This document shows positions 1-49,300 of a stretch of 64,000 bases of DNA, piece by piece. Positions within the stretch are counted from its first letter, which is position 1. Each line of letters begins with the position of its first letter. The notes beneath the pieces are model-generated. The model was not told the origin of the DNA. It was given only the letters and a program-made list of their open reading frames with translations, and did no database searches. This DNA comes from Pseudo-nitzschia pungens. Taxonomy: Eukaryota; Bacillariophyta; Bacillariophyceae; Bacillariales; Bacillariaceae. The position numbers were made by a program, and so were the translations under genes. The stretch covers positions 1 through 64,000 of the forward strand of contig CM074768.1 of NCBI GenBank assembly GCA_037355855.1, written 5' to 3'.

Positions 1-636
1 AACCCCAACCCCAACCCCAAACCCCAACAACAACAACCCAAACCAACCCCAACAACAACCCCAATAAACCCAACACCCCAACAACCCAACAACCCCAACA
101 ACCCCAACCCCAACCCCAACAACCCCAACAACCCCAACCCCAACCCAACAACCCCAACCCCAACAACCCCAACCCCAACAACCCCAACCCCAACAACCCC
201 AACCCCAACAACCCCAACAACCCCAACCCCAACAAACAACAAACCCCAACCCCAACAACCCCAAACCCCAACAACCCCAACCCCAACAACAACAACCCCA
301 ACCCCAACCCCAACAACAACAACCCCAACCCCAACAACCCCAACCCCAACAACCCCAACCCCAACAAACCCCAACCCCAACAAACCCCAACCCCAACAAC
401 CCCAACCCCAACAACCCCAACCCCAACCCCAACAACCCCAACCCCAACCCCAACAACCCCAACCCCAACAACAACAACCCCAACCCCAACCCCAACCCCA
501 ACAACCCCAACCCCAACAACCCCAACAACCCCAACAACCCCAACCCCAACAACAACAACCCCAACCCCAACAACCCCAACCCCAACAACCCCAACAACCC
601 CAACCCCAACAACCCCAACCCCAACAACCCCAACCC
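1..636. repeat. CCCCAA / CCCCAACAA satellite, first array
   Basis: The window opens inside an irregular array of CCCCAA, CCCCAACAA and CCCCAACAACAA units. The complementary strand is GGGGTT/GGGGTTGTT, so it has many G4 tracts and could form G-quadruplexes. The CCCCAA unit equals the ciliate telomere repeat, but the irregular AACAA spacers, the internal position next to another satellite, and a second copy at 8506-9068 argue for an interstitial satellite. No gene is visible. Confidence 0.95.
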
Positions 637-3042
637 CACTTAAAATGACACCATTTGTGAGCCCTGTGAGGCCACAAATCCAGTCTCAAAACCAAACTTT
701 TGGGTTATTTCAGAGCTTTTCAGCAGACACTTGACCCATCCAAGGCTCCTTGACAGACTCAACACCTAAAAATGTGTTCAAACAATGAGTTAGAAAAAGC
801 CACACAACCCGCCAAAATCACTTAAAATGACACCATTTGTGAGCCCTGTGAGGACACAAATCCAATCTCAAAACCAAACTTTTGGGTTATTTCAGAGCTT
901 TTCAGCAGACACTTGACCCATCCAAGGCTCCTTGACAGACTCAACACCTAAAAATGTGTTCAAACAATGAGTTAGAAAAAGTCACACAACCCGCCAAAAT
1001 CACTTAAAATGACACCATTTGTGAGCCCTGTGAGGCCACAAATCCAGTCTCAAAACCAAACTTTTGGGTTATTTCAGAGCTTTTCAGCAGACACTTGACC
1101 CATCCAAGGCTCCTTGACAGACTCAACACCTAAAAATGTGTTCAAACAATGAGTTAGAAAAAGCCACACAACCCGCCAGAATCAGAGAAAATGACACCAT
1201 TTGTGATCCCTGTGAGGCCACAAATCCAGTCTCAAAACCAAACTTTTGGGTTATTTCAGAGCTTTTCAGCAGACACTTGACCCATCCAAGGCTCCTTGAC
1301 AGACTCAACACCTAAAAATGTGTTCAAACAATGAGTTAGAAAAAGTCACACAACCCGCCAGAATCAGAGAAAATGACACCATTTGTGAGCCCTGTGAGGA
1401 CACAAATCCAGTCTCAAAACCAAACTTTTGGGTTATTTCAGAGCTTTTCAGCAGACACTTGACCCATCCAAGGCTCCTTGACAGACTCAACACCTAAAAA
1501 TGTGTTCAAACAATGAGTTAGAAAAAGCCACACAACCCGCCAAAATCACTTAAAATGACACCATTTGTGAGCCCTGTGAGGCCACAAATCCAGTCTCAAA
1601 ACCAAACTTTTGGGTTATTTCAGAGCTTTTCAGCAGACACTTGACCCATCCAAGGCTCCTTGACAGACTCAACACCTAAAAATGTGTTCAAACAATGAGT
1701 TAGAAAAAGCCACACAACCCGCCAAAATCACTTAAAATGACACCATTTGTGAGCCCTGTGAGGACACAAATCCAATCTCAAAACCAAACTTTTGGGTTAT
1801 TTCAGAGCTTTTCAGCAGACACTTGACCCATCCAAGGCTCCTTGACAGACTCAACACCTAAAAATGTGTTCAAACAATGAGTTAGAAAAAGTCACACAAC
1901 CCGCCAGAATCAGAGAAAATGACACCATTTGTGAGCCCTGTGAGGCCACAAATCCAGTCTCAAAACCAAACTTTTGGGTTATTTCAGAGCTTTTCAGCAG
2001 ACACTTGACCCATCCAAGGCTCCTTGACAGACTCAACACCTAAAAATGTGTTCAAACAATGAGTTAGAAAAAGCCACACAACCCGCCAGAATCACTTAAA
2101 ATGACACCATTTGTGAGCCCTGTGAGGCCACAAATCCAGTCTCAAAACCAAACTTTTGGGTTATTTCAGAGCTTTTCAGCAGACACTTGACCCATCCAAG
2201 GCTCCTTGACAGACTCAACACCTAAAAATGTGTTCAAACAATGAGTTAGAAAAAGTCACACAACCCGCCAAAATACTTAAAATGACACCATTTGTGAGCC
2301 CTGTGAGGCCACAAATCCAATCTCAAAACCAAACTTTTGGGTTATTTCAGAGCTTTTCAGCAGACACTTGACCCATCCAAGGCTCCTTGACAGACTCAAC
2401 ACCTAAAAATGTGTTCAAACAATGAGTTAGAAAAAGTCACACAACCCGCCAAAATCACTTAAAATGACACCATTTGTAAGTCCTGTGAGGCCACAAATCC
2501 AATCTCAAAACCAAACTTTTGGGTTATTTCAGAGCTTTTCAGCAGACACTTGACCCATCCAAGGCTCCTTGACAGACTCAACACCTAAAAATGTGTTCAA
2601 ACAATGAGTTAGAAAAAGCCACACAACCCGCCAGAATCACTTAAAATGACACCATTTGTGAGCCCTGTGAGGCCACAAATCCAATCTCAAAACCAAACTT
2701 TTGGGTTATTTCAGAGCTTTTCAGCAGACACTTGACCCATCCAAGGCTCCTTGACAGACTCAACACCTAAAAATGTGTTCAAACAATGAGTTAGAAAAAG
2801 TCACACAACCCGCCAAAATCACTTAAAATGACACCATTTGTGAGCCGTGTGAGGCCACAAATCCAATCTCAAAACCAAACTTTTGGGTTATTTCAGAGCT
2901 TTTCAGCAGACACTTGACCCATCCAAGGCTCCTTGACAGACTCAACACCTAAAAATGTGTTCAAACAATGAGTTAGAAAAAGCCACACAACCCGCCAGAA
3001 TCACTTAAAATGACACCATTTGTGAGCCGTGTGAGGCCACAA
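637..3042. repeat. 182-bp tandem satellite, about 13 copies
   Basis: Consecutive units start at 637, 819 and so on, 182 bp apart, and are nearly identical. Variants are mainly CACTTAAAATG versus CAGAGAAAATG at the unit start and a few single-base changes. The last unit is cut at about 3042 where the next repeat begins. The short open frames on the minus strand recur exactly once per unit and are satellite artefacts. Units of this length resemble nucleosome-scale satellites; any centromeric or heterochromatic role is inference only. Confidence 0.95.
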
Positions 3043-3420
3043 AGCTTAGCATTTCAGCAATAAACCTATCATTTTGCAAAATCACCAAAGCTTAGCATTT
3101 GGTTGAGCAATAAGGCAAGCATTTAGCTCAGTAACAAACCAAGCTTTGCATGAAGCCCATATTTTGGCTAAGCAACAAAACTGGGGATTGGGTTCAGCAA
3201 CAAGCCTAGCATTTTTGCTGAGCAACAAGCCTAGCATTCTGCTGAGCAACAGGCCTAGGATTTTGGTCAGCAACAAGCCTAGCATTTTTGCTTAGCAACA
3301 AGCCTAGCATTTTACACATCAGCAAAAGCCTAGCATTTTTGCTAAGCAACAAGGCTAGCATTTTGCTGGGCAACAAGCACAGAATCTTTGGTGATCAACC
3401 AGCTGAAGCATCTTGCGTAA
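3043..3420. repeat. Degenerate AGCAACAAGCCTAGCATTT repeat
   Basis: Imperfect units of about 25-35 bp built around AGCAACAAGCCTAGCATTTTTGC follow the 182-bp satellite directly. The core AGCAACAAGCCT resembles the AGCAACAGGCTT repeats that mark ends of the foldback family near 36040, 53330, 54660 and 62460. No gene is visible. Confidence 0.75.
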
Positions 3421-3479
3421 CACTTTGATAATTGCTTACAAACACAGTTTAACATCTATTCAAAATAAAAAGATAAGAT

Positions 3480-5432
3480 TCACTCGCCATCGCTGCTGTT
3501 TTCTGACTCATGAGCATCGTACTGTCTCAACTGATCAGGAGTCTTCAACATCACAGCTTGCTCCCAATCGTCGCCTTCAGCATACAAGAGGTAAATTGCG
3601 AGGTCCCGTTCCGTGGTGCCAGTCTTAAATGTGCCTCCACTTTTGGTGCAAAGGCGGAGCTTTCCACGGTAGTTGTAGAATCTGACGCGTCTCAAGATAT
3701 CAAGAAGGGTTTGTTCTCTGACGTCCTCCTCATTTTCCAGCTGTTCGTCATCGACCTGTTCCTCTTCAACACTACCAAGCTCGGTGTGGCCTTGTGCTGC
3801 TTCTTCTAAATTTGTCATGAAGTCTCCAACCTGTTCGTAGTCTGCGAGAAACTGTCGACGACTTTCCCTTGCCGCATCAGCAGCCTCTCTGATTTCTTGC
3901 TCCTGTGCTTCGTTGAGTCCACGCTCAATGGCCAGACGCAGTGCCATGTGGTGAGCCGTTTCGAAAACACGGGCTCCGAGTGTTGGGTGGTTAGTGAGGC
4001 GGATTGTTTCGTAATTCCCATTGGGATCCAGTCGAGTGGTACGATACTTGAAGTTAACAGCAGAAAAAACATGAATGTCGATCACAAACGGACTGTACCG
4101 GTAATTTGCATTGTGAAATTTTCTGTTTGCAAAAAACTTGCTCCACTTTTTAGTTGAAGGAATGGAGATATCGTCATCTCGCTGACGACGAGTTGAATGA
4201 TGCAAACCACCAATCTTGAGATTGAAAACCTTGAACCGATTGACCTCATCCTTATGATTCTTGATCAAAAGGGGGGTATCGGTAATGTAAATGCCAAGAG
4301 AATTCATCAACTCCATGTAGGCAACTCGCTTTAACGGAGTTAGCTTGTTTGATGCTCTTTCACCTTTGAAAAACGGTAGACACTGAGCAAAAAGGGCTTC
4401 GTGCATTGCAAACATAACAGATTGCGGCACTTCCATCACAATAGTGGAAGCCTTGACTCGTTTGTGGATAAGAAATGCTTGGCGGACGGCATCGTACAAT
4501 CCTGCTTCTCGACTGGATTCCTCAACTTTAATTCTGTATTCGTAGCGGAGCATTCCACATGTACATGGATTTTCCTTGTAAGCTTGGAGAATATTCCCCA
4601 TGTAGTGACGTGAATTCTTGAACGAGGCAAAGTTCTTGGGAATCCAAACAGATGTGGATCTCTGAATTCCTTTCCAGATGTGAGCACTCTTGTTGTAAAT
4701 ACGAATAAGCTCGCACCTGTGTGATTCATGGTGGGATGTTAAAGTAGCCTTGATGCCACCAAATTGGTTGACAGGAATGTCAGCTTGGTAGTTTCTAAAC
4801 AATGGATAAACGTAATCATGAAAACGAGGAAAATTCTTTTTCCAGTGCACCAGCAATGGTGAAACAATGGGAAAGCAAGGCTCAACAGGCTTTGTGGGAG
4901 TTTCTTCAATTCCGACATCAATCTTCACCGTAATGTCATCACCAAACCGGTCTTTGATTGACATCAACGATTCAAAGCCATAAACAGTGGCTTTCATCCC
5001 ATACTGTTCGACAATAATCTCGTCCACCTCAGCATGAGTAAGTACGGACATTAGATCATACGATGAGAGACGTTTTGGGGGAGTATCGAACAGAAATTTT
5101 GGAGATCGTGCATGCTTCATTGGATGACCATAGTGGTTGCGAATGGCTTGACAGATATCGCTCTTGTATCGGCGCTTGACAGAAACATAATAGGGTCCAT
5201 GTGCAACCAAACACCAAAAAGATCGGGGCTTGTATGACGGAACAGTCTTCCCAATGTCCCAGTGAGACTTTGTGATGAGTTGGAGTACGGAGAATCGTTG
5301 AGTCTGAAAGAAAACATAGTCAATGTCAATGTAATCATTGCAGAACTCATACCAGTCATCATCATCCGAGTTGTGGTGAGGAGGGTTTATCTTGGGTACC
5401 TTTTCCTGAACATTGGTTGGGTTGATTGGCAT
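3480..5432 (-). CDS. Unrecognised 650-residue protein (possible replication-initiator-like motifs)
   Basis: One uninterrupted open frame. The longest frame reaches a TTG at 5525, with an in-frame stop at 5543; the first in-frame ATG is at 5432, giving 650 residues. I do not recognise the family. Visible features: an N-terminal proline/asparagine stretch followed by DDDDW; a basic central region; the motif RIYNKS near residue 244 and RYEYRIK near residue 296; a glutamate/alanine-rich predicted helix after about residue 490; and a very acidic C-terminal region. The RIYxKS...RxEYR spacing recalls rolling-circle replication initiation factors (Rep_trans), but this is pattern resemblance only. A 10-A run just upstream and possible introns make the N-terminus uncertain. 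It is embedded between satellites, so a mobile-element origin is possible. Composition is protein-like and unlike the flanking repeats, so I consider it a real gene. Confidence 0.7.
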   Translation of the reverse strand: MPINPTNVQEKVPKINPPHHNSDDDDWYEFCNDYIDIDYVFFQTQRFSVLQLITKSHWDIGKTVPSYKPRSFWCLVAHGPYYVSVKRRYKSDICQAIRNHYGHPMKHARSPKFLFDTPPKRLSSYDLMSVLTHAEVDEIIVEQYGMKATVYGFESLMSIKDRFGDDITVKIDVGIEETPTKPVEPCFPIVSPLLVHWKKNFPRFHDYVYPLFRNYQADIPVNQFGGIKATLTSHHESHRCELIRIYNKSAHIWKGIQRSTSVWIPKNFASFKNSRHYMGNILQAYKENPCTCGMLRYEYRIKVEESSREAGLYDAVRQAFLIHKRVKASTIVMEVPQSVMFAMHEALFAQCLPFFKGERASNKLTPLKRVAYMELMNSLGIYITDTPLLIKNHKDEVNRFKVFNLKIGGLHHSTRRQRDDDISIPSTKKWSKFFANRKFHNANYRYSPFVIDIHVFSAVNFKYRTTRLDPNGNYETIRLTNHPTLGARVFETAHHMALRLAIERGLNEAQEQEIREAADAARESRRQFLADYEQVGDFMTNLEEAAQGHTELGSVEEEQVDDEQLENEEDVREQTLLDILRRVRFYNYRGKLRLCTKSGGTFKTGTTERDLAIYLLYAEGDDWEQAVMLKTPDQLRQYDAHESENSSDGE

Positions 5433-5630
5433 GATTGGTGTTGGTGGTAAAAATTCTGGTGTTTTTTTGCTGGGTTTTGGTTTTCCAGATTTTGAAAATT
5501 GTGAGAAGAAAAAAGTGTGAGACAAAAACCATTTTTTTTTTCATTTCGTGCGTGAGGACCTTTGTACAAGGGTTCACAAAAAAAAAGATTTTATTCAACC
5601 GCGAACTGAAAGATTTCGTTCGAACGAAAA

Positions 5631-5772
5631 TTCGAAAATCCGGGTTCCTATTGCTGCTTCTTACGTACGTACTATTTGTAATTTCGAAAATCCGGGTTCC
5701 TATTGCTGCTTCGTACGTACGTACTATTTGTAATTTCGAAAATCCGGGTTCCTATTGCTGCTTCGTACGTAC
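5631..5772. repeat. 52-bp tandem repeat, about 2.7 copies
   Basis: TTCGAAAATCCGGGTTCC recurs at 5631, 5683 and 5735, exactly 52 bp apart, each copy carrying TACGTACGTAC. The last copy runs into the 38-bp satellite. A perfect 16-bp palindrome, TTTCGTTCGAACGAAA, lies just upstream at about 5614-5629. Confidence 0.9.
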
Positions 5773-8050
5773 ACCGAGGCAATTTTGAGACATGTGTGGT
5801 GTGGGACTAAAACCCTGTAGTTTTGAGACATGTGTGGTATGTGACCCGAACCCTGTAAATTTGAAACATGTGTGGTATGGGACTCGAACCCGATAATTTT
5901 TAGACCTGTGTGGCATGTGACTCGAACCCTGTAATTTTGAGACATGTGTGGTGTGTGACCCGAACCCTGTAATTTTGAGACATGTGTGGTGTGGGACCGA
6001 AACCCGATAATTTTGAGACATGTGTGCTGTGGGACCGAAACCCGATAATTTTGAGACCTGTGTGGTATGGGACTCCAACCCTGTAATTTTGAGACCTGTG
6101 TGGTGTGGGACCGAAACCCGATAATTTTGAGACATGTGTGGTATGGGACTCGAACCATGTAATTTTGAGACCTGTGTGGTGTGTGACCCGAACCCGATAA
6201 TTTTGAGAACTGTGTGGTGTGTGACCCGAACCCTGTAATTTTGAGACCTGTGTGGTGTGTGACCCGAACCCTGTAATTTTGAGACCTGTGTGGCGTGGGA
6301 CCGAAACCCGATAATTTTGAGACATGTGTGGTATGGGACTCGAACCCTGTAATTTTGAGACCGGCGTGGTGTGTGACCGAAACCGGATAATTTTTGAGAC
6401 CGGTATGGTGTGGGACCCGAACCTTATATTTTTGAGACCGGTGTGGTGTGGGACCGAAACCCGATAATTTTGACACATGTGTGGTATGGGACCGAAACCC
6501 TACAGTTTTTGAGACCGGTATGGTGTGGAACCGAAACCCGTTATTTTTGAAGCCGGTATGGTGTGGGACCGAAACCGGATAAATTTGAGACACATGTGGT
6601 ATGGGACCGAAACCCGATAATTTTGACACATGTGTGGTATGGGACCGAAACCCTACAGTTTTTGAGACCGGTATGGTGTGGAACCAAAACCCGATAATTT
6701 TGAGACACATGTGGTATGGGACCGAAACCCGATAATTTTGACACATGTGTGGTATGGGACCGAAACCCTACAGTTTTTGAGACCGGTATGGTGTGGAACC
6801 GAAACGCGATAATTTTGAGACACATGTGGTATGGGACCGAAACCCGATAATTTTGATACAGGTGTGGTATGGGACCGAAACCCTACAGTTTTGAGACCGG
6901 TATGGTGTGGGACCGAAACCCGATAATTTTGAGACCCATGTGGTATGGGACCGAAACCCGATAATTTTGACACATGTATGGTATGTGACCGAAACCCTAG
7001 AGTTTTGAGATCGGTACCGGTACGTATGGTGTGGAACCAAAACCCGATAATTTTGAGACGCATGTGGTATGGGACCGAAACCCGATAATTTTGAGACCGG
7101 TGTGGTATGTGACCCGAACCCTATAGTTTTGAGACCCATGTGGTGTGGGACCGAAACCCGATAATTTTGAGACATGTGTGGTATGTGACCCTAACCCTAC
7201 AGTCTTGAGACCGGTGTGGTGTGGGACCGAAACCCGATAATTTTGAGACCGGTGTGGTGTGGGACCCTAACTCTATATTTTTGAGACCGGTGTGGTGTGG
7301 GACCGAAACCCGATAATTTTGAGACATGTGTGGTATGTGACCCTAACCCTACAGTCTTGAGACCGGTGTGGTGTGGGACCGAAACCCGATAATTTTGAGA
7401 CCGGTGTGGTGTGGGACCCTAACTCTATATTTTTGAGACCGGTGTGGTGTGGGACCGAAACCCGATAATTTTGAGACATGTGTGGTATGTGACCCTAACC
7501 CTACAGTTTTGAGACCGGTGTGGTGTGGGACCGAAACCCGATAATTTTGAGACATGTGTGGTGTGGGACCGAAACCCGATAATTTTGAGACATGTGTGGT
7601 ATGTGACCCTAACCCTACAGTTTTGAGACCGGTGTGGTGTGGGACCGAAACCCGATAATTTTGAGACATGTGTGGTGTGGGACCGAAACCCGATAATTTT
7701 GAGACATGTGTGGTGTGTGACCCTAACCCTACAGTTTTGAGACAGGTGTGGTGTGGGACCGAAACCCGATATTTTTGAGACCGGTGTGATGTGGGACCGA
7801 AACCCGATAATTTTGAGACATGTGTGGTGTGTGACCCTAACCCTACAGTTTTGAGACAGGTGTGGTGTGGGACCGAAACCCGATATTTTTGAGACCGGTG
7901 TGATGTGGGACCGAAACCCGATAATTTTGAGACATGCATGGTGTGGGACTGAATAATTTTGAGACCTTTGTGGTGCGGGACTGAATAATTTTTCGATCGG
8001 TGTGGTGCGGGACTAAAAAATTTTTCGACTTAGTGTGGGGCCGAAAACCC
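5773..8050. repeat. 38-bp tandem satellite, about 60 copies
   Basis: Units of 38 bp (GAGACATGTGTGGTGTGGGA followed by CCGAAACCCGATAATTTT) run head to tail for about 2.3 kb with no unique spacers. Later units form higher-order blocks of 76 and 152 bp. Because 38 is not a multiple of three and the unit lacks stops on the minus strand, long minus-strand frames exist in all phases (up to 340 codons), with a 38-residue peptide period. They are repeat artefacts, not genes. The array decays after about 7960. Confidence 0.95.
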
Positions 8051-8505
8051 AAGGGATAAGGTTATTCCCCCCCCAGCAGCCTACTGCAACCAACCCTACT
8101 TTTTTTTCACTAAGTCATTTTCAAAATTTTTTTTGACTCAAACTCAACACATTTGGGGTCTAGATGCCAAGTTTGCTGAAGATATGTAAAAAAAAAAAAA
8201 AAATTTTACCAAAAATTTTTAGGTCCAGCGGAGATATTTTCAAAAATATTTTTTGGTCAAACCCAGCATATTTGGGTTGTAGACGCCATGTTTGCTCAAG
8301 ATATTTCAAAAAAAAAAATTTGAAAAAATTTCACCCGCTAGCATTTTATATGGGGACCAAAAAAATTTTCTCTAAGTTTTTGCTGTTTTTTTTGACCCAT
8401 TTTTTTAAGTGTCCAAGGCTACTCCCGGGTCCAGGTGGGGCTAGAGAGTAGCAAAAAGGTCTGAACGGACCTAAAAGTCCATTTTAAACGCTAGGAAAAG
8501 ACTAC
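8051..8505. other. AT-rich junction with an imperfect duplication
   Basis: No gene seen. Two diverged copies of a roughly 115-bp segment (about 8108-8220 and 8222-8335) share TTTTCAAAA, a run of T, GACTCAAAC/GGTCAAACC, ATTTGGGxT, AGAxGCCAxGTTTGCTxAAGATAT and a poly-A tract. This may be the remnant of another tandem repeat between the 38-bp and CCCCAACAA arrays. Confidence 0.6.
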
Positions 8506-9068
8506 TAACAACCCCAACCCCAACAACCCCAACAACCCCAACCCCAACAACCCCAACCCCAACAACCCCAACCCCAACAACCCCAACCCCAACAACCCCA
8601 ACCCCAACAACCCCAACCCCAACAACAACAACCCCAACCCCAACAACCCCAACCCCAACAACCCCAACAACCCCAACCAACCAACCCCAACAACCCCAAC
8701 CCCAACAACAACAACCCCAACCCCAACAACCCCAACCCCAACAACCCCAACAACCCCAACAACCCCAACCCCAACCCCAACAACCCCAACCCCAACAACC
8801 CCAACCCCAACAACCCCAACAACCCCAACAACAACCCCAACCCCAACAACCCCAACAACCCCAACAACCCCAACCCCAACAACCCCAACCCCAACAACCC
8901 CAACAACCCCAACCCCAACAACCCAACAACCCAACCCCAACAACCCCAACCCCAACAACCCCAACAACCCCAACCCCAACAACCCCAACCCCAACAACAA
9001 CAACCCCAACCCCAACAACCCCAACCCCAACAACCCCAACCCCAACAAACCCCAACAACCCCAACAAA
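8506..9068. repeat. CCCCAA / CCCCAACAA satellite, second array
   Basis: Same unit family as 1-636. It ends about 22 bp beyond the stop codon of the LRR gene, so the gene's 3' untranslated region would run straight into GGGGTTGTT repeats. A short piece of the same repeat also sits inside the last intron of that gene (about 9261-9285). Confidence 0.95.
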
Positions 9069-9090: not shown

Positions 9091-12000
9091 CTAATACTTA
9101 GTACATGAGCAAAAAGTGATGTTACCACCAACTTCATCCTCAAAATAATCTTCTTCACAAGTGAGGTTTGACAATGACAAAACCCCATCACCCTGACACA
9201 TCGAAATAGCTGCAAACAAAGACAAAAGACAAAACATGACAAAATCAGTAGGGAAAAGCACAACCAACAACCCCAACCCCAACAATAAAATTACGATAAT
9301 TCGCTTGAACAATCATTCTCTCAAATATCCACACTCACACAAAGAAAGATATTCCAAGCCTGTCAACAACCCAATCTCAGAAGGAATGCTTCCATTCAAT
9401 TCATTCCCATCTGCAAACACACACCAATACACAACGTGAAACAAACATTCAACACACACATTAAGTATATCATCAACAAATCCATTGACACAAAAACACA
9501 CAGCATTCACAAACCCAGAATCTTTCACACCATCAACAATCACAACAACATCCGCACTCACCCAAATCAAGATATTCCAAGCCAGTCAACAACCCAATCT
9601 CAGAAGGAATGCTTCCATTCAATTCATTCCCATCTGCAAACACACACCAATACACAACATGAAACAAACATTCAACACACACATTAAGTATATCATCAAC
9701 AAATCCATTGACACAAAAACACACAGCATTCACAAAACCCCAACCTTTCACACCATCAACAACCACTACAACATCCCCACTCACACAAATCAAGATCATA
9801 CAAGCCCGTCAACAACCCAATCTCAGAAGGAATGCTTCCATTCAATTCATTCCCATCTGCAAACACACACCAATACACAACATGAAACAAACATTCAACA
9901 CACACATTAAGTATGTCATCAACAAATCCATTGACACAAAAACACACAGCATTCACAAAACCCCAACCTTTCACACCATCAACAACCACTACAACATCCG
10001 CACTCACACAAAGAAAGAACTTCCAAGCCCGTCAACAACCCAATCTCAGAAGGAATGCTTCCATTCAATTTATTCTCAACTGCAAACACACACAAATACA
10101 CAACATGAAACAAACATTCAACACACACATTAAGTATATCATCAACAAATCCATTGACACAAAAACACACAGCATTCACAAAACCCCAACCTTTCACACC
10201 ATCAACAACCACTACAACATCCGCACTCACACAAATAAAGATATGTCAAGCCCGTCAACAACCCAATCTCAGAAGGAATGCTTCCAGTCAATTCATTCCG
10301 ATCTGCAAACACACACCAATACACAACGTGAAACAAACATTCAACACACACATTAAGTATGTCATCAACAAATCCATTGACACAAAAACACACAGCATTC
10401 ACAAAACCCCAACCTTTCACACCATCAACAACCACTACAACATCCGCACTCACACAAAGAAAGAACTTCCAAGCCCGTCAACAACCCAATCTCAGAAGGA
10501 ATGCTTCCATTCAATTTATTCTCAACTGCAAACACACACAAATACACAACATGAAACAAACATTTAACACACACATTAAGTATGTCATCAACAAATCCAT
10601 TGACACAAAAACACACAGCATTCACAAAACCCCAACCTTTCACACCATCAACAACCACTACAACATCCGCACTCACACAAATAAAGATATGTCAAGCCCG
10701 TCAACAACCCAATCTCAGAAGGAATGCTTCCATTCAATTCATTCCCATCTGCAAACACACACCAATACACAACATGAAACAAACATTCAACACACACATT
10801 AAGTATATCATCAACAAATCCATTGACACAAAAACACACAGCATTCACAAACTCCCAATCATTCATACCATCAGCAACCACTACAACATCTACACTCACC
10901 CAAATCAAGATCATACAAGCCTGTCAACAACCCAATCTCAGAAGGAATGGTTCCATTCAATTCATTCCCATCTGCAAACACACACCAATACACAACATGA
11001 AACAAACATTCAACACACAAATTAATCATATCATCAACAAATCAAACGACACAAAAAAACAAAGTATTGGCAAGCCCCAAATCTCTCACACCATCAACAA
11101 CCACTACAACATCCGCACTCACAGAAAGAAAGAACTGTCAAGCCAGTCAAAAACCCAATCTCGGAAGGAATGGTTCCAGTCAACTGATTCTCAGCTGGGA
11201 ATACATACCAATACACAACATAAAACAAAGCATTCAACACACACATTAATCATATCATCAACAAATCAATTAACACAAAAAAACCCAAAAGCATTGACAA
11301 ACCCCAAATCTCTCACACCATCAACAACCACTACAACATCCGCACTCACAGAAAGAAAGAACTGTCAAGCCTGTCAAAAACCCAATCTCGGAAGGAATGG
11401 TTCCAGTCAACTGATTCGCAGCTGAGAATACATACCAATACACAACATGAAACAAAGCATTCAACACACACATTAATCATATCATCAACAAATCAAATGA
11501 AACAAAAAACACATAGCATTGGCAAACCCCAAATCGCTCACACCATCAACAACCACTACAACATCCGCACTCACACAAATACAGATCTGTCAAGCCTGTC
11601 AAAAACCCAATCTCGGAAGGAATGGTTCCAGTCAACTGATTCGCAGCTGGGAATACATACCAATACACAACATGAAACAAAGCATTCAACACACACATTA
11701 ATCAAATCATCAACAAATCAAACGACACAAAAAAACAAAGTATTGGCACAAATCTCTCACACCATCAACAACCACTACAACATCCGCACTCACACAAAGA
11801 AAGATATTTCAAGCCCGTCAACAACCCAATCTCAATAGGAATGCTTCCAGTCAACTGATTCGCAGCTGAGAATACATACCAATACACAACATGAAACAAA
11901 GCATTCAACACACACATTAATCATATCATCAACAAATCAAATGAAACAAAAAACACATAGCATTGGCAAACCCCAAATCGCTCACACCATCAACAACCAC

Positions 12001-15000
12001 TACAACATCCGCACTCACACAAATACAGATCTGTCAAGCCTGTCAAAAACCCAATCTCGGAAGGAATGGTTCCAGTCAACTGATTCGCAGCTGGGAATAC
12101 ATACCAATACACAACATGAAACAAAGCATTCAACACACACATTAATCAAATCATCAACAAATCAAACGACACAAAAAAACAAAGTATTGGCACAAATCTC
12201 TCACACCATCAACAACCACTACAACATCCGCACTCACACAAAGCAAGAAATTTCAAGCCCGTCAACAACCCAATCTCAATAGGAATGCTTCCATTCAATT
12301 CATTCCCATCTGCAAACACACACCAATACACAACATGAAACAAACATTCAACACACACATTAAGTATATCATCAACAAACCCATTGACACAAAAACACAC
12401 AGCATTCACAAAACCCCAATCTTTCACACCATCAACAACCACTACAACATCCGCACTCACATAAAGAAAGATATTCCAAGCCTGTCAACAACCCAATCTC
12501 AGAAGGAATGGTTCCAGTCAACTGATTCTCAGCTGGGAATACATACCAATACACAACATAAAACAAAGCATTCAACACACACATTAATCATATCATCAAC
12601 AAATCAATTAACACAAAAAAACCCAAAAGCATTGACAAACCCCAAATCTCTCACACCATCAACAACCACTACAACATCCGCACTCACAGAAAGAAAGAAC
12701 TGTCAAGCCTGTCAAAAACCCAATCTCGGAAGGAATGGTTCCAGTCAACTGATTCGCAGCTGAGAATACATACCAATACACAACATGAAACAAAGCATTC
12801 AACACACACATTAATCATATCATCAACAAATCAAATGAAACAAAAAACACATAGCATTGGCAAACCCCAAATCGCTCACACCATCAACAACCACTACAAC
12901 ATCCGCACTCACACAAATACAGATCTGTCAAGCCTGTCAACAACCCAATCTCAGAAGGAATGCTTCCATTCAATTTATTCCCATCTGCAAACACACACCA
13001 ATACACAACATGAAACAAACATTCAACACACACATTAAGTATATCATCAACAAATCCATTGACACAAAAACACACAGCATTCACAAAACCCCAATCTTTC
13101 ACACCATCAACAACCACTACAACATCTGCACTCACATAAAGAAAGATCTGTCAAGTCTGTCAACAACCCAATCTCAGAAGGAATGGTTCCAGTCAATTCA
13201 TTGTTACCTGAAAAATGTGAAGAGACTACCAATTAGCTCCATTACAGTTACATGAACATTTTTCAAAAAAGTATGCTACGAATCTCAACTCACCTAAAGA
13301 CAATCTGGAAAATGATTGTAGCAACATTGTATATTTTGGAATTGTCCCAGAAAGTCCCAATTGGTGCAAATCCAGTTCTTTGGGAGCTAAATCTTTCTTG
13401 CAAACTATTGCAGACCAGAGACATGTTGGATTGGAATTGATCCATGATCTTCCCCCGCCTTTCACTGGGGCACTATAGTTCAATAGACTCAGTCCAAATC
13501 TCTCATTGAAATATTCGTCACTACAGTCTGAATTCCCTGAGTCATCTTCAACAATCCAGTACAGAGCTTGCTTTGCATGAAAATCATTGTACAATTCAAA
13601 CACATTAGCAGCCACAGAAAGCTTGTCTATCATGCATTCAGGAATCGCCTTAAAGGATACACTTCCTTCTTCAACACTGTTGCCTGCAAGGATCTTTGTA
13701 GTGTTTGCAACACTGTCTCCCATGTAAAGGGAATAGTCAAAATACCAGATGGTATTGGTGATATCAGTTTGATTCTTCACTGTCATAAGGCAATTTGCAC
13801 GATCACTGACATGAACAGTCTCACTACCATTGGTCATGTTTTCACTGATGTCAAGTGATAAAACAATTTTTCCCTCGCACTCAAGGATAAGATAAGGATT
13901 GTCAACTGGATTGCCTTCTTCATAACACCACGGATCTTTTTCTGATTCTGTAACGTTACCAAGATGGATTGTGATTGGAACCATGCTTGGATCTGTGCAG
14001 TTGGGAAAGCCATTGCCAGTGATGTTTGACATACCAAAAGCTTTGGTGATGGCATCAATCCCACAGACAGAATGAGAGCATGTTGCAGAGCAGCAATCTC
14101 CACCATCATATCCCAATGTCAAGTTGTTCAATTTATCGTCACATTTTCCATCATCAATCGAGTAGCAAATTTGCTCCTCATTTTTTGGCCATTTGAATAC
14201 AGACACATCAATAGGCGTGCCAGAAGCACTGTACCATCCCTCATCAAAAGCAGTCAATATGTCAAAGGTGTCCATCTTGGATGAAAATGCAAGTTCATCA
14301 GCCTTTGCCTCTTTCTGACATGCATCAGTATCATTCGAGGATAGTGTCCAACGGCGATCCTCAATGCAGTACTGAAACATTGCTGTGTCAGTGTCACCTG
14401 TCAGAAGATAAACATCTCTCTTGTGTAGATCCAATTCTGAAAACTGGCTTTGATTCATCTGTTTGTAGCATCCACTGAACCCTTGGAGTTCAGTTGTCTG
14501 AAAGTCAACCCTCAAAATAGTAGTACGCCATTTATTTGGGTCTGATTGGTAAGAAACGATTCGACCGATGAATGCAACACAAATAGCTCCCAGAGCTACC
14601 AAAGTGAAATGGAATCGAGTATGCTTTCGTCGTGACATGCAGTGTGGGAGTTGAAGTTTGGTGATTCGATTTGCTTCTTGTTGAAGTTTTTTACCATATT
14701 TCCCACTCAAGGCCAACTGAAAGGCCACATTATCCAAGCTACTTATGAAATTCTTTCCGAGAAGGCAAATGAAAGAAGTAAAATGAAGAGCAAGTGTCCA
14801 GGAAATGGAGAACAGAGGATAGTAGTGTGAGACAACATCTGTAATCTGATGGCAATCTGGTGTCAATTGGAAACGTAATATGGCTCTCACCACTGCAGAG
14901 AAGTTTAGGACAATCTCAACTGCAGTTTCCGATGTTACAATTAGTAGAAAAGCTGCAAGCATTGCCAACAAACCTTGAAACAAACGAAGCATGCAAGAAA

Positions 15001-16120
15001 ATACCATGCATCCAACTTTGTCACCATGGTTAGTTTTGGAGAAATTGGGGAATTTCTCAATTGCAGTAGTAATGTCCAGCATAGATGCGTCTGCAAACAA
15101 GACATAGGCTGAAATAGCTATGAACTGTGTTGCTTGTACGACTGGATCTGCATTGGCGGCAACAATTCTCGCAAGCACATCATCATCTGGATTGTCATCG
15201 TGCCTTGTACCCCAGTCTGGATGAAGAACACTTAGTAACATCATACTAACAAGCGACACTTGAAAGATGGAAACCATAATTCCCATACCAAAGAAAAGTG
15301 GTTGGTCAATGGGCCCGTGGAGGGACAAGAAAGAATAGGAGTCTTCTGGATAGACTGGATGTGGAATATCCTCAACACAGAACAATTCACTATCTCTATC
15401 CCCTTCATTTGTGTTTTCTTCCCTTTGACTTTTCTTGTTCGATTCATCGTCTAAAGTATCTTCCCTAACCAAAGTATTGATTGAATCCTTGCCATAATGT
15501 TTTGGAGCACCACTCTCTATATCATCGTCGGATAATTCCAATGAATTCTCATTGGAGCGTGCGTCCATCTCCTTTGCCTTGTTCCTTTCCAAGTCTGTTG
15601 GTTCCTTTATGGTATCAACGTCGAGAGTTAGGGCCTCCACCTGATGCCCTGCATAGGAAGATTTATTGTTGTCTTGATTGACGTTTTTGGTGCTACCATA
15701 GATGGTATGATAATTGACCAGTGGAATTTCATCGTAGGACACAACAAAATCTGCAAAAGCTTCTTTGGTGTATGCTTTGGGATCCTTGTAATTCTGGCCT
15801 GAATCTCCAAGATATTTTTTGAATGCCACAAAAGTCAAGAGTTGTCTATGAAGTGCCTTGGAAGTGGGAATTTGGACTCCATGTTCACTCCAAGCAAGAC
15901 TGTTGACAGTGGTGGATGTGAGTTCAAGAAAGGAGTCCCACTGGGTAAACCCAGATGCAATGAGAGCACTGCAAAGAAGAGATTCATCATTGGTTTCATC
16001 CAGCAATTCTTTGAGAATGCGTGCAACGTCATGATGAAATCGTGGGAATTGATTTGTCATCGTTATTGCAGCGTTGTCTCCAGTTTCGGCTGCATTACCG
16101 GTAGATTGCAATTCGGCCAT
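9091..16120 (-). CDS. Membrane protein with LNR motif and 18 single-exon leucine-rich repeats
   Basis: I reconstruct 20 exons. Exon 1 is 13294-16120; then 18 exons of exactly 72 nt start (plus-strand low coordinate) at 13136, 12913, 12688, 12461, 12238, 12019, 11794, 11575, 11350, 11123, 10900, 10677, 10454, 10231, 10008, 9785, 9562 and 9339; the last exon is 9091-9209. All introns are GT(GAGT)...AG and phase 1. The sum is 4242 nt, divisible by three, giving 1413 residues. The ATG at 16120 follows an in-frame stop. Domain order: N-terminal helical region (about 25-95, SAM-like at best), acidic linker, about five membrane segments (near 275-298, 325-345, 370-400, 432-455, 501-523), a large probable ectodomain with an LNR/Notch-type cysteine motif ending GYDGGDCC (about 655-675), then LRRs of plant-like consensus NxLxGSIPSEIGLLTG, and a short C-terminal cysteine-rich cap. 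Likely a surface receptor or adhesion protein; ligand unknown. Confidence 0.85.
9339..13135 (-). repeat. Tandem array of exon-plus-intron units (about 223 bp) within the LRR gene
   Basis: Each unit is one 72-nt LRR exon plus one intron of 147-155 nt (most 151). Exon starts are spaced 223 bp for most units and 219, 225 or 227 bp for a second subfamily (11123-12912). Introns are almost as similar as exons, implying recent unequal exchange or gene conversion. Higher-order duplications are visible: 446 bp (exons 10008/10231 versus 10454/10677), 444 bp (11575/11794 versus 12019/12238), and a block shifted by 1338 bp (11123/11350/11575 versus 12461/12688/12913). Frames open across introns on both strands are by-products of the low-complexity introns. 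Confidence 0.9.
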
Positions 16121-42118: not shown

Positions 42119-44932
42119 TCATGGGGAATGATAAGGCTTGATACGTCTGAGATTAATCCGTTCAATGATATGCTCATTGCGAAGGAAAGATACAGTACCA
42201 TTGGTGTGGACTTGAGTGATGGTAAATGGGCCAATTGCTCTGGAACCAAGCGCATCAGTCTTGTAGTTGAAGATCATGATCTGATCACCAATGTTGTAGT
42301 CATGGTGTTTACGACGCTTGTTTTCTCTGAGCGCATTCTGATCAATAACAGATTGGCGTTTGGATCTGAGGAGTTTGATATCAGTGATGATAGGAATTGG
42401 AAGGAACATATCACGATGGAAGGCAATAGCTCCAGGTGAAACACCAAATGTTTTATGCACAGTGCATCTGACAGCAAATTGAGCAGAGGCAAAAACATTG
42501 TCAATGAGGTCAATAGCTTGTTGCAAATCCTGAGGAGGATTAGCATGAAGTTCAGTGCGCATGGCAGATTTCATAGTATCATGCACACGTTCCAAAACAG
42601 CATTGGCTTGAGGATTTTTGACTGTGGTTGGAACAGGCTTGATGTCAAGGTTAATAAGGTGAGATTGAAAATCAACATTGAGGTATTCAGAACCTTGATC
42701 AAAAATGCATCTGCTGGGTTTTGGATAGCGAGAAAGCCATGCATCGTTTAATGCATAGATGGACATTTTACCTGAGGGATTCATCTGTGGAGCACGTTTG
42801 ATTTCAAGGAGGTTAGTGCACATATCCATAATGGTGAAACCATTGAATTCAACATTCCCAATATTTGGAATATTGATGTTCCAGGGTCCAATAGTGTCGA
42901 TTGCAATAGTTTCCCATGGAATGGAGAGTTCTTCGCGAGTTGCAAGATGTCCATAAGAGATGTGGGCATTCTTGTGGCGTTGACAGGAATCACAGGTTTT
43001 ACAGTATGCTGCAACAGCATCCTTAAGACCCGGAGAATAAATAAGCATGGAGATGGTTCTGGTCAAACGTTCTGTGCCTGCATGACCAAGAACATGGTGA
43101 TACCAATTGATGGTGTTTTGAACAAGGGATTCGGGAAGAACAATCTTGGTTTGGTTGTTTTTGGTGTAGACCTTGAGTTCAGTGCCAGCGAAATCTTTGG
43201 TGGAATAATGCTTGGTGTTTTGAATGGTTGGATCTGCTGCTTGGGCTTTAGCAAGATCCTCAAAACGAAGAGGATATGCAGGAAGATCTGCAGGGTAATT
43301 GATAAAAAGATCAGCAATGGAAAGATCAGAAGTGTCAACCTTGGAGATTGGCTGAATGTTTGGATCTTTGGAATCTTTGGAATCTTGGGAAGGAGAAACA
43401 GAAGGCAAACCCTGCTCCTCCTCCAAGGGAAGGCGCGAGAGGGCATCAGCAAGGATGTTATCTTTGCCTTGGATGAACTTGAAAACAGGACTGAAGTCTT
43501 CAAGGAGCATGCGCCAGGTCATAATTCTGTTGGAATTGAGATTTTGACGAGTGAGGTTTTCATGGTCAGTGTAAACAAAAATAATTGCACCCCAAAGAAT
43601 AGTCCGGTATTCTTTGAAGACTTCCACAATGCAAAGCATTTCTTTGTCAATGGTTGGATATTTGAGTTGAGTGGAAGTGAGTTTCCTGGAGAAGCATGCA
43701 ACAATTTTACCATTTTGAATAATCACAGCACCAAGTTGATAATCGGAGGCATCAGTGTAGACATGATAAGGGAGATTAGGATCAGGATATGTGAGGAGAA
43801 TTTCCTCAGCAATCATGGTTTTGGCAGCTTTGAAGGCAGCAAGCAATTCAGGAGTTGGCTTGACCGGTCCACGGGCCTTTCCAGAGAGGGCAGTGAGAGG
43901 AGCCAAAATCTCAGCGCGCTTGCGCCAATGAGCCCGATAGAAATTAATCATGCCAATGAAGGATCGAAGGTCAGTGATAGTTGCAGGGAAAGCAAGCTTC
44001 AGGATTGGTTCAATCTTTTTAGGGTTTGGAAGGATACCAGTGGTGGTGATGATGTGACCAAGCCATGGTGCTCGTTGTTGGAACCAATGGCATTTGGCAG
44101 GTTTAACAGAAAAGTTGTTGGCTTGTAGGATGGACAAAACAGTGGAGACAGTTGTGCAGTGGGATTGAAAGTCGCTGGAGAAGATACCAATGTCATCAAT
44201 ATAGACTTCAACACTGTTGAGGTTGATAAAAAGGGATTCCATACAGCCTTGCGCCCAGCTTGGAGAGTTGAGGAAGCCCATTGGAAGTCTCAGCAATCTG
44301 AATTTGCCAAAAGGAGTGACAAGCACACAGAGCCAAGTGGAAGGCTCATCCAATTTGAAGGTATGGAATTGCATGCTGACATCAATAAGGGTGACATATT
44401 TGAACCCACGGCGGCGATGGAAGATATCTTGGATCTTGGGCAAAGGATAGTGGAGTTTCTTGGTGACTTTGTTAAGTTCACGAAAATCAGAAATGATTCT
44501 GCAGGAGCCATCCGGCTTGGGGACAACAAAAGTTGGCATACCCCATTCAGTTGCATAACATCTTTCAAGAATTCCAAGTTTCACTTGGCGAAGGAGTTCA
44601 GTTTTAACAGCGTCTTGTTGATGGATAGGGATACTGTAGGGCTGCTTGATATGATATGGTTTTGCACCCGGTTGGAGTTCAATGTGGAATTCCTTGTGGG
44701 GGAAAATTCCAAGTTCTCTATGAGAGAGACCTTCAAACAGAGGATGGTGTTTGGAGAGAATCTGAAGCAACTGGGATTGTTGGTCACTGGAAAGATGGGT
44801 TTGGTTGGAAACCAGTTCTTGCAAATCAGTTTTCTCATATTTGGTTGCACTATCAACGTAGGATTGAGAGGTTTGCGCGATGTAGGCTTCAGCAATGGAG
44901 TAGGGTTCATTGCTGATAATCTTTCGGACCAA
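42119..44932 (-). pseudogene. pol part of the host gypsy element (RT, RNase H, integrase), cut off from its start
   Basis: Reverse transcriptase with the VYIDDIG active site and LRLPMGFLNSP; RNase H with YTDASDYQLGA and VYTDHENL; integrase with an H-C zinc module (HHVLGHAG ... CKTCDSC) and catalytic AIDTIGPW, FDQGSEYL and NPQANAVLERVH; and a GPF module (AIGPFTITQVHTNGTV) at the C-terminus, no chromodomain seen. The enzyme domains look intact, with all key acidic residues. The frame lacks its own ATG because the plus-strand element has inserted between protease and RT, so no full gag-pol can be made from this copy. Confidence 0.93.
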
Positions 44933-46362: not shown

Positions 46363-49300
46363 GTCACCAAGCACAAGCCACCCCGGGCCAAGCGCCCTAT
46401 TCAACCAGCAATCACCTTGCCTCCGGCGCCACAGGCCCTGGATGCCAGCTCAGCACAGCTGACTGGGAAGTCGCATGGAGGAGATCTCCCGGAAAAAGAG
46501 GGGAAGGAACCTACAGGATGGAGTCCTGTTGAGCGCTCAGCAAATAATATTAATAACAAAAGAAGTCGATCCGACTCCGAAAAGGAAACCGAATCGACAA
46601 TGGATCCCCGGAGATCCAAGGGTACAGACGCAAACAACGAATCGACAGAAAAATCGATCGATAAAACGGCAGCAGCAGCAATATCAGGACAATCATGTCT
46701 CCTGACAAGGACCTGGTCCACCGGATCAGCCAAAATATTCCAAAGCAATCCCAGCAAAACTAAAGACAACACCCATGGAGGTGCGCTGGAGCAAAATTAT
46801 TCGAAACTGCTGTCAACTGCTGGAAATACAGCAGAAAAATCATCCCAAAATCAACCGGCATCGAATACGAAGATGAGCAACGTGGCTCCTATTCTATTAA
46901 CCAACGTACAGTTTATACAAGGCATACCTCTCAAAGCAAGACCACTACTCGCACTACTCGATAGTGGATCAACCACGACACTAATCAACAAACGAGCACT
47001 ACCATTCGGCACCATACCAACCATGTCCCAACACAAGGTGATAACCACGACAGCTAGTGGTTCCTTCGATACTACAGAGTATGTTACCATGAAGAACATC
47101 AAGCTACAGGAGTTTGGCAGCACCACTATCATCAAGCAACAAGCACGACTCTTCAATTCCCCGGACTGTCGATATGATCTGATACTAGGGAGAGACTTCC
47201 TCCACCTAGCAAAGATTAATCTGCTATTCGAATCGGCTACAGTCCAGTGGATGAACAGAACAGTCCCAATGAAAGATCTATCCATCTACCAATCCAACAG
47301 AGACTACCAAGGTCTAATGGAAGAGCTTGAAGATGCTGAACTCTTTGCTGACGACCTCACCTTTGCCAATCCATACAAGTCCAAGGTCATCCTAGACCGA
47401 GCCTACCAAGAAGTCGACCCATCTACAGTCGCGGGTCAACAAGCCCACATGTCCAAAGCAGAGCAAAAACAATTCCAAGCAGTCCTCAACAAGTATCCCA
47501 ACGTGTTTAACGGAGAACTCGGAAGATATCCACACAAGAAGATCTCTCTAAGACTCAAATCCGGAGCAAAGCCCATCCACAAGAAGCCTTATCCAGTTGC
47601 ATACAAGAGAGAAGACCTATTCAAAAGGGAGCTCCAGAATCTTTGTAATGATGGAGTACTCAAAAGGTGCACGGGACCAGCCGAATGGGCGTTTCCTACA
47701 TTCATTGTTCCAAAGAAGGACAACAGAGTTCGATGGGTATCAGACTTCAGAGAACTGAATCAACTGCTTGAAAGACGTCCTTATCCAATCCCAAGGATAC
47801 AAGACATCATGAACAAGCGGGGCAAATACACGCACTTCACCAAGATTGACTTGTCCATGCAATACTACTGCTTTGAACTAGATGACGCAAGCAAGAAGCT
47901 CTGTACCATTGTAACGCCATATGGTTGCTATGAATACCAGAGACTACCAATGGGTGTCAAAGTCTCCCCAGATGTAGCCCAACAGCTCATGGAAGATATC
48001 CTACAAGACACCGACTGCACGGTATACATCGATGATATAGGAATATGGACTGATGGATCCTTCGACCACCACATGAAGACTATTGACAAGATCCTTGACA
48101 GGCTCAACCAAAATGGGCTAAAGTGCAACCCACTCAAGTGTGATTGGGCTGTACAAGAAACCGATTTCCTTGGTTACTGGATGACGCCTACAGCTGTTAA
48201 GCCGTGGAAGAAGAAGATTGAAGCCATCCTACGAATGGATCGACCCCGAACTGTCACTCAAGTCAAGTCCTTCCTAGGAGCAGTGGGATACTACAGAGAT
48301 ATGTGGCCTCGCAGATCTCATATCCTAGCTCCTCTCTTTGATATCACCGGTGGCCCCAAGAAAACCCCTCAAGCAGCTGTCATGAAAGGCAAGCAACGCA
48401 AAGCACCTTCATCAACAGCCTTCACTTGGGGCCCTGCTCAAGATAAAGCCTTTCAAGAAATGAAAGCCATGGTAGCAGCGGATGCGCTGAATACCTATCC
48501 GGACCTTAACAAGCCCTTTGAACTGTACACTGATGCCTCCGACCTACAACTGGGCGCTGCTATTCTACAAGATGGCAAGCCCATTGCCTATTGGTCAAAG
48601 AAACTAACTGAAGCCCAAAAGAACTATACTACTATGGAAAAAGAACTCCTCGCAATAGTTCTGTGTTGCAAGGAGTACCGAAAAATGCTCCTTGGTGGTG
48701 TTATCAACGTATACACCGACCATAAGAACCTAACCTTCAGGACCCTGTCGGTCCAACGAGTCCTCCGATGGAGACTCTTCCTAGAAGAATTTGGTGTTAA
48801 TCTCACCTATGTCGAAGGCAAATCTAATGTCTTAGCTGATGCCTTCTCCCGGCTCCCCCGGATGGATCCACCTACTGTGGGGAAGAAAGAAGCCCTTGGT
48901 AAGGGAACTTTGATTGATTTCCTGAAACTGGAAGTCCCAGAGCAAGAAGAAGAACTGTTTCTTACAGAACTTCCAAGCGTCTTCCAACACTTGTGCCATG
49001 ACGCAGATTATGAACTCCAATCGTGTCTGCTGAACAATGAGTGCCTGGTCAATCTACCCACGATTCAAGACATGGAATGCCCTGTAAATTACAATACCAT
49101 CTACAACCATCAAGCCAAGGACAACAAGCTCTCTTTCAAGGCAAACTCCAAAACATTCTTCTACCAAGAAATTGAAGGCCATAACATTCTATGCTATGCC
49201 AATATCACGAAGCCCGACAAGTGGAAGATATACATCCCACCTTCTCTAGTGCCCGACACGATCAAATGGTACCACCTCTTGCTGGGTCATTGTGGATCCA

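Follow-up and report, generated by a model that had tools for sequence, protein, structure and literature searches.

In a 64,000-nucleotide stretch of Pseudo-nitzschia pungens DNA (contig CM074768.1, positions 1 to 64,000; hereafter, the window), which is the start of contig C11 in a 66.9-Mb, 28-contig genome assembly, we characterized a minus-strand gene (locus W) that carries 18 leucine-rich repeats (LRRs), one per 72-nt exon. Comparing its exons with those of related loci revealed strong diversifying change, concentrated at the x positions of the LxxLxLxxNxL motif, in arrays that are mosaics of units within and between loci. Judging by this pattern of selection, the most likely role of the gene, and probably the correct one, is that of a germline-diversified receptor recognizing a microbe, a parasite or a partner cell.

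A receptor-like gene with one exon per leucine-rich repeat

The spliced gene model forms one open frame from the ATG at 16120 to the stop at 9091, its coding sequence (CDS) being divisible by three, as the initial annotation of this DNA had proposed. That annotation was also correct in the coordinates and counts of the LRR exons: 18 exons of exactly 72 nt, each preceded by the acceptor CAG, followed by the donor GTGAGT and interrupted in phase 1, extend from 13207-13136 (exon 1) to 9410-9339 (exon 18), each contributing one 24-residue LRR step. The 17 introns between them measure 147-155 nt, the intron ahead of the first LRR exon 86 nt and the last intron 129 nt. When the first exon is modelled as 942 codons, all 19 introns of the gene present an in-frame stop if retained, and thus intron retention would truncate the protein. 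The array scores 5543 in Tandem Repeats Finder (TRF), indicating that its pattern is not due to chance.

The predicted splicing of the LRR exons is supported by constraint on both splice sites and exon length. Among 211 LRR cores picked blind to splice sites, AG precedes 209 and GTGAGT follows 202; the donor is GTGAGA, GTAAGT or GTCAGT in six others, and GT is missing in three, two of which match exons of loci C11b and C11c that are cut by telomere repeat. Across 14 loci (the window, its 11 best matches and two more distant ones, a sample that leans to the window's subfamily because 11 were chosen as best matches), a length of 72 nt was assigned to 248 of 256 LRR exons, a count that leans that way since the script tries 72 first. 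Introns deviate from the modal length of their array by a non-multiple of 3 in 90 of 239 cases. Moreover, in the Pseudo-nitzschia homologue P0005, taken from a transcriptome set, the ectodomain and a long run of LRRs are continuous, with no break.

The single long exon 1 of the initial annotation is in fact split. It holds a further intron of 138 nt at 14890-14753 (minus strand), GTGAGA...AAAG, which is free of stops. The matching piece in nine other anchored loci is 103, 104, 134, 137 or 138 nt long, a non-multiple of 3 in five of the nine; the homologous protein P0001 lacks the segment; and residues 412-457 of the folded open reading frame (ORF) have a predicted local distance difference test score (pLDDT) <50 in the structure model. 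On these three grounds we call the piece an intron, one that is stop-free by chance in the window copy. Subtracting it from the model gives a gene of 21 exons with a 4104-nt CDS and a product of 1367 residues, organized as follows.

14891..16120, minus strand: exon 1a, with the start codon, N-terminal region and first membrane helices, 410 codons
14753..14890, minus strand: hidden intron, 138 nt, GTGAGA...AAAG
13294..14752, minus strand: exon 1b, with the last membrane helix, beta-rich ectodomain with weak LNR-like motif and probable LRR N-cap; phase 1 end
13295..13525, minus strand: probable LRR N-terminal cap, by alignment to SERK2, PEPR1 and HSL1
13136..13207, minus strand: LRR exon 1
12913..12984, minus strand: LRR exon 2
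12688..12759, minus strand: LRR exon 3
12461..12532, minus strand: LRR exon 4
12238..12309, minus strand: LRR exon 5
12019..12090, minus strand: LRR exon 6
11794..11865, minus strand: LRR exon 7
11575..11646, minus strand: LRR exon 8
11350..11421, minus strand: LRR exon 9
11123..11194, minus strand: LRR exon 10
10900..10971, minus strand: LRR exon 11
10677..10748, minus strand: LRR exon 12
10454..10525, minus strand: LRR exon 13
10231..10302, minus strand: LRR exon 14
10008..10079, minus strand: LRR exon 15
9785..9856, minus strand: LRR exon 16
9562..9633, minus strand: LRR exon 17
9339..9410, minus strand: LRR exon 18
9210..9338, minus strand: last intron, 129 nt, with a short telomere-like stretch at about 9267-9285
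9091..9209, minus strand: last exon, cysteine-containing C-terminal cap and stop; a like exon occurs in C8, C5, C1, C3 and C12, and in degraded form in C7b

As part of the same overall explanation, the product is probably a membrane-anchored LRR receptor-like protein, with three or four predicted membrane helices, a beta-rich ectodomain, 18 LRRs and a C-terminal cap; the earlier designation as a surface protein is thus supported as far as a membrane-type protein goes. The ectodomain carries a weak match to an LNR-like motif. ORF residues of about 866-942 align with the N-terminal parts of SERK2, PEPR1 and HSL1 and probably form the LRR N-terminal cap. The repeat itself follows LxxLxLxxNxLxGxIP, with FLS2 as the best sequence match in the PDB (E 3.2e-165), and of the 16 Pfam families that 26 aligned members match at E<=0.1, none is a ROC or COR model. 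The best-scoring homologues of the gene are Pseudo-nitzschia proteins, in agreement with the alga assumed by the initial annotation: P0001-P0007 and P0009 share 42-64% identity over 97-100% of residues 250-942, the ectodomain being homologous over its whole length in P0001 (E 8.7e-292, 64% over 99%). Some homologous proteins bear the label 'Psemu1', which we take to denote P. multiseries.

Diversifying change at the presumed ligand-binding face

The number of LRR exons varies from 4 to 34 per locus, in agreement with the repeat-number variation that had been anticipated for this architecture. In the 240 canonical exons, entropy reaches 2.0-3.1 bits at exon residues 1, 3, 19, 20 and 22 and 2.7 bits at the junction residue, and lies at 0.1-0.8 bits at 15 scaffold residues. 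The x positions of LxxLxLxxNxL account for the six highest values; in LRR proteins, these positions line the concave, ligand-binding face.

The introns provide a yardstick for this variation. They had been described as being as similar as the exons, yet within the window array they are more similar, mean pairwise divergence being 9.6% for introns and 14.2% for exons (136 pairs). Within arrays generally (1647 pairs), the difference at codon positions 1+2 is 0.47 at concave residues and 0.030 in the scaffold, compared with 0.098 in introns. Concave positions 1+2 exceed introns in all 13 arrays compared (the unit alignment did not include C9), by a ratio of 2.2-55 depending on the array and of 5.2 (3.8-8.0) when bootstrapped over loci.

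The ratio of nonsynonymous to synonymous change (dN/dS) at solvent-facing LRR positions, which the initial annotation had put forward as a check, points the same way: the pooled Nei-Gojobori value is 5.4 at concave codons and 0.39 in the scaffold, and that of the five motif codons ranges from 2.1 to 30.8 by array, exceeding 1 in 13/13. Over all 23 codons it is 1.64, falling to 0.63 without the five motif codons. Since the codon classes were set after the entropy table had been seen, we re-tested the signal with independently picked codons: those picked on C9 alone gave a dN/dS of 5.97 in the 13 other arrays, and those picked on non-telomeric loci gave 6.41 in telomeric loci. The concave-site signal is therefore not circular.

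These measurements bear on whether the arrays are simply a neutral subtelomeric repeat expansion, in which the unit multiplies in a satellite-like manner and much of the array encodes no working protein. Such an expansion would be in keeping with the location of arrays at chromosome ends beside satellites, with the broken state of some copies and with the homogenization of units. However, a neutral satellite would yield neither scaffold nonsynonymous change far below that of introns nor concave change far above it, and would not explain why introns vary out of frame while exons hardly do, with splice sites conserved. The selection pattern thus largely refutes this possibility, and we consider it very unlikely.

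Exon junctions cut the presumed ligand-facing strip

The intron splits its codon 1+2, the upstream exon supplying base 1 and the next exon bases 2-3. As 235 of the 240 exons start with any base followed by a pyrimidine, no upstream base can turn the joined codon into a stop in these cases; when all exons are paired at random, 1.15% of the junctions are stops, and the 214 actual junctions encode 14 amino acids and no stop. Codons of the form NNT predominate at codon 20 (227/240), codon 22 (232/240) and the junction (199/214), where the first two bases occur in 12, 14 and 13 types, respectively. The third base is A in 220/240 at codon 19 and G in 182/240 at codon 1.

Each ligand-facing strip is assembled from two exons, and 168 of the 214 strips are distinct. 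Because the exon junction lies inside the strip, each new exon neighbourhood gives rise to another strip and another junction codon. Linkage statistics, drawn from the 10 arrays that have at least 12 units, show residues up to 6 nt apart to be tightly linked (z 9.8-14.1) and opposite ends of one exon weakly so (z 4.0, 2.3). Bases across the junction (z -0.6), and residue 22 relative to residue 1 of the next exon (z 1.1), are unlinked, and thus exons reassort freely relative to their neighbours.

The three hypervariable codons that vary at bases 1+2 while base 3 is mostly T might bring to mind targeted hypermutation of NNT codons, akin to that of diversity-generating retroelements. Such systems are expected to leave a pattern of adenine-specific mutagenesis, unlike the predominant third-base A at codon 19 and G at codon 1. 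Furthermore, concave codons and scaffold have similar pooled proportions of synonymous differences (pS; 0.107 and 0.081, respectively), favouring amino-acid selection over local hypermutation, although concave pS is higher in W and C3. We therefore hold this mechanism to be exceedingly improbable.

The symmetry of the phase-1 exons and the rarity of junction stops in random pairings would equally suit a Dscam- or NLRP-like gene, whose diversity arises mainly by alternative splicing and less by germline change. Splice variants that differ in LRR content have indeed been described in brown algal shuffling-LRR genes (PMC11378527). On the other hand, the donors of the present family are a nearly uniform hexamer (202/211), offering no obvious basis for exon choice. 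Splicing as the main source of diversity thus appears unlikely, though exon skipping may add isoforms.

A mosaic family, often at chromosome ends

The window gene belongs to a genome-wide family. A single exon-plus-intron unit has 314 matches in the genome, the inner exon pattern has 203 exact matches versus 0 for the reversed pattern, and the receptor part has 54 matching pieces. One less closely related paralogue (39% identity; C7 at 85 kb) has most of its LRRs inside one open frame, suggesting that the one-LRR-per-exon array is a derived state.

Comparing units among loci indicated exchange. Unit 1 of W is identical to unit 1 of C8; units 2-10, except 4, are private to W, with 25-34 differences to other loci and two identical pairs (unit 3 with 9, unit 6 with 8); and units 11-17 differ by 3-11 from units elsewhere. 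A six-unit block is repeated in C11b, and the 196 units compared include 19 identical pairs from the same locus and four from different loci. Arrays are thus mosaics within and between loci, and the identical units within the window array bear out the recent amplification of the exon-plus-intron unit proposed earlier. In addition, the cap exon, telomere block, 7.9-kb element and terminal telomere of W are 98.8% identical over 9.1 kb to those at the right end of C8, whereas the receptor parts of the two loci are 84% alike, locating an exchange within the array or next to it.

Several arrays have further peculiarities. In C12, at about 163.0-164.0 kb, 5 of the 18 LRR exons lie about 2.4 kb past the cap exon and may represent either a duplicated end of the gene or a separate gene. 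The LRR arrays of C4 (about 1.9-4.9 kb) and C11 (about 2.125-2.130 Mb) are interrupted by insertions of about 3 and 5 kb; near each end these carry a copy of a sequence of about 0.3 kb, an arrangement seen in LTR elements. Two LRR arrays on C1 (4847453-4850275 and 5230444-5233287), about 0.38 Mb apart, have mirror-image spacing, reflecting an inverted duplication or an assembly artefact.

At the window's own end, the features beyond the gene are as follows.

8509..9067, minus strand: block of telomere repeat immediately 3' to the gene; the G-rich strand reads in the coding direction
637..8508, no strand assigned: subtelomeric element, about 7.9 kb, with 182-bp satellite, ORF and 38-bp minisatellite
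1..638, no strand assigned: chromosome-end telomere repeat, irregular CCCCAA/CAA

Both ends of C1 and of C3, as well as further contig ends, carry the irregular GGGGTT/GTT repeat. It consists of GGGGTT with GTT insertions and follows no uniform hexamer (window 1-638; ends of C1, C3, C4, C6 and C8). In 9 of the 14 loci (W, C8, C7a, C4, C11b, C5, C1, C7c and C11c), a telomere block of 475-843 nt begins 0-751 nt past the last LRR exon, oriented in 9/9 as a chromosome end ahead of the gene (p 0.004); C11c has an additional upstream block of 156 nt on the opposite strand. The remaining loci are C3, C7b, C12, C5d and C9, the sequence of the last being covered only about 0.1 kb past the array. Scaffold-internal blocks reach stretches of N directly in C1, C7c and C11c, and after the subtelomeric element in C5 and C11b; as these stretches are exactly 500 N, we interpret the blocks as genuine chromosome ends that were placed inside scaffolds. 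The distance of C7a to the end of C7 is 22 kb, and the stretch seen contains no N. In C4, C7a, C11b and C11c, the array breaks off within an exon or intron, where telomere repeat takes over. For nine of the 17 telomere-bearing ends recognized, the family gene closest to the end is one of the arrays studied, in a list that is incomplete, with two blocks on C2 near 8.57-8.60 Mb left unplaced.

The subtelomeric element of the window (637-8508) contains 13 copies of the 182-bp satellite, an ORF at 3480-5525 without a Pfam or protein-database relative, and 57 copies of the 38-bp minisatellite. It recurs at other ends between telomere repeats, at about 91-99% identity. Farther inside the window are long ORFs at 42119-44932 (minus strand) and 46417-50337 (plus strand), which, by their motif, are presumably Ty3/gypsy-type retroelement polyproteins.

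Symmetric phase-1 exons of 72 nt let exon-plus-intron units be gained, lost or swapped in frame. We propose that unequal crossing-over and exchange between chromosome ends would generate the arrays, with telomere repeat occasionally truncating them; and that selection would retain those combinations in which a new exon neighbourhood, and with it a new strip and junction codon, alters ligand binding. A bolder version, which we think quite unlikely, is clonal: breakage and the addition of telomere repeat would shorten arrays, which recombination between ends would regrow or swap in the course of vegetative growth, giving the cells of a single clone different receptors. If true, a single-celled alga would possess a repertoire resembling that of antigen receptors or of antigenic variation.

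Probable role of the receptor-like protein

The initial annotation had suggested a recognition-diversity system. This reading is supported in part by the diversification of the presumed recognition face, the amplification of units and the variation in repeat number, but the hidden intron, the split NNT codon, the genome-wide family, the exchange between loci and the telomeric position had been missed.

What is recognized need not be a pathogen. The arrays could diversify through co-evolving partner-recognition proteins in mating or species recognition, a serious rival to immunity and one that we regard as possible, if less probable. Several LRR receptor-like genes of Pseudo-nitzschia multistriata are differently expressed during sexual reproduction, and two of the 11 regulated genes with Ka:Ks>1 are of this type (PMC5485032); MRP2 and MRM2, which are mating-type-biased, have a transmembrane region and LRRs and no recognizable kinase domain (PMC6261938). 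That the best-scoring homologues are from this genus fits as well. However, the family seems larger and more mosaic than a single mating pair would require.

A number of observations weigh against a germline-diversified recognition receptor. No kinase model was found, nor is there one among the 16 Pfam families noted above. Residues 5, 7 and 17, outside the concave motif, are also variable (1.1-1.4 bits, dN/dS 1.73); the window's own array is among the lowest in dN/dS (2.26), and its concave pS is raised (0.213 vs 0.139 in the scaffold), as is that of C3 (0.258). Units are related by conversion, so that pairs are non-independent, contrary to the assumption of dN/dS. Some loci are damaged or incomplete: exon 1b is open in nine of ten anchored loci and broken in C7b, with 44 stops in the frame used; exon 1a, of 401-529 codons in seven of the ten, has short ORFs of 281-311 codons in C8, C7b and C12; the C8 cap exon has an early stop; and no cap exon was found in C4, C7a, C7c, C11b and C11c. 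In C3, two LRR exons (4827740 and 4827292) are frameshifted at 73 nt, the rest of the array being open. Skipping both would preserve the frame.

Comparison with known systems

Exon-per-LRR shuffling as such is already known from brown algae and Tetrahymena. In the ROCO genes of Ectocarpus and Saccharina, 72-bp LRR exons shuffle, with nucleotides 3-71 encoding 23 residues and sites on the concave side under positive selection (PMC11378527). The window gene shares the 72-nt exon, its 3-71 layout and the concave-site selection; going by its nucleotide numbers, 'phase 2' in that paper equals phase 1 here. The proteins differ, the ROCO product being a GTPase (LRR-ROC-COR) and that of the window gene of membrane-receptor type. 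Moreover, judging from the consensus and site numbers, the brown algal ligand strip (sites 14, 16, 18 and 19) seems to lie within one exon, whereas the junction of the window gene cuts it.

In Tetrahymena, tandem 90-bp LRR exons in phase 2 spread by exon shuffling, and the youngest such genes are subtelomeric or pericentromeric (PMC6564038). Both systems have tandem LRR exons of one size, but the ciliate exons measure 90 bp in phase 2 and those of the window gene 72 nt in phase 1. Neither 'concave' nor 'positive selection' appears in the available text of that paper. In the results of our literature searches, we saw no exon-per-LRR layout that combines a diatom host, a membrane-receptor-type protein, a telomeric position and a junction cutting the ligand strip.

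Modular LRR exons whose skipping keeps the frame are also found in human NLRP (PMC6642158), and those of glycoprotein-hormone receptors are likewise exon-modular (as cited in PMC11378527). Exon-modular LRR domains are what both have in common with the window gene. We know of no recent near-identical unit arrays in either.

Among diatoms, tandem duplicates in Seminavis include many LRR genes (PMC7335047). The Pseudo-nitzschia LRR receptor-like proteins P0001-P0007 and P0009 belong to the same ectodomain family as the window gene. With plant-type extracellular LRR receptors the gene shares its repeat motif, though unlike plant-type LRR receptor kinases it lacks a kinase model. The trypanosome VSG and malaria var genes, both diversified surface families, and yeast Y' elements are telomere-proximal and exchange ends. 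Exchange of ends is common to these and to the window family, in which the part subject to cutting or swapping is a receptor's terminal exon array, and the telomere-flanked 7.9-kb element recalls Y'.

One-exon-per-LRR shuffling thereby extends from brown algae and ciliates to a diatom, to a membrane-receptor-type protein and to chromosome ends. A junction that cuts the ligand-facing strip, at a split codon that is mostly NNT, offers a concrete route to combinatorial diversity, and recognition diversity in phytoplankton becomes directly testable through strain and clone sequencing.

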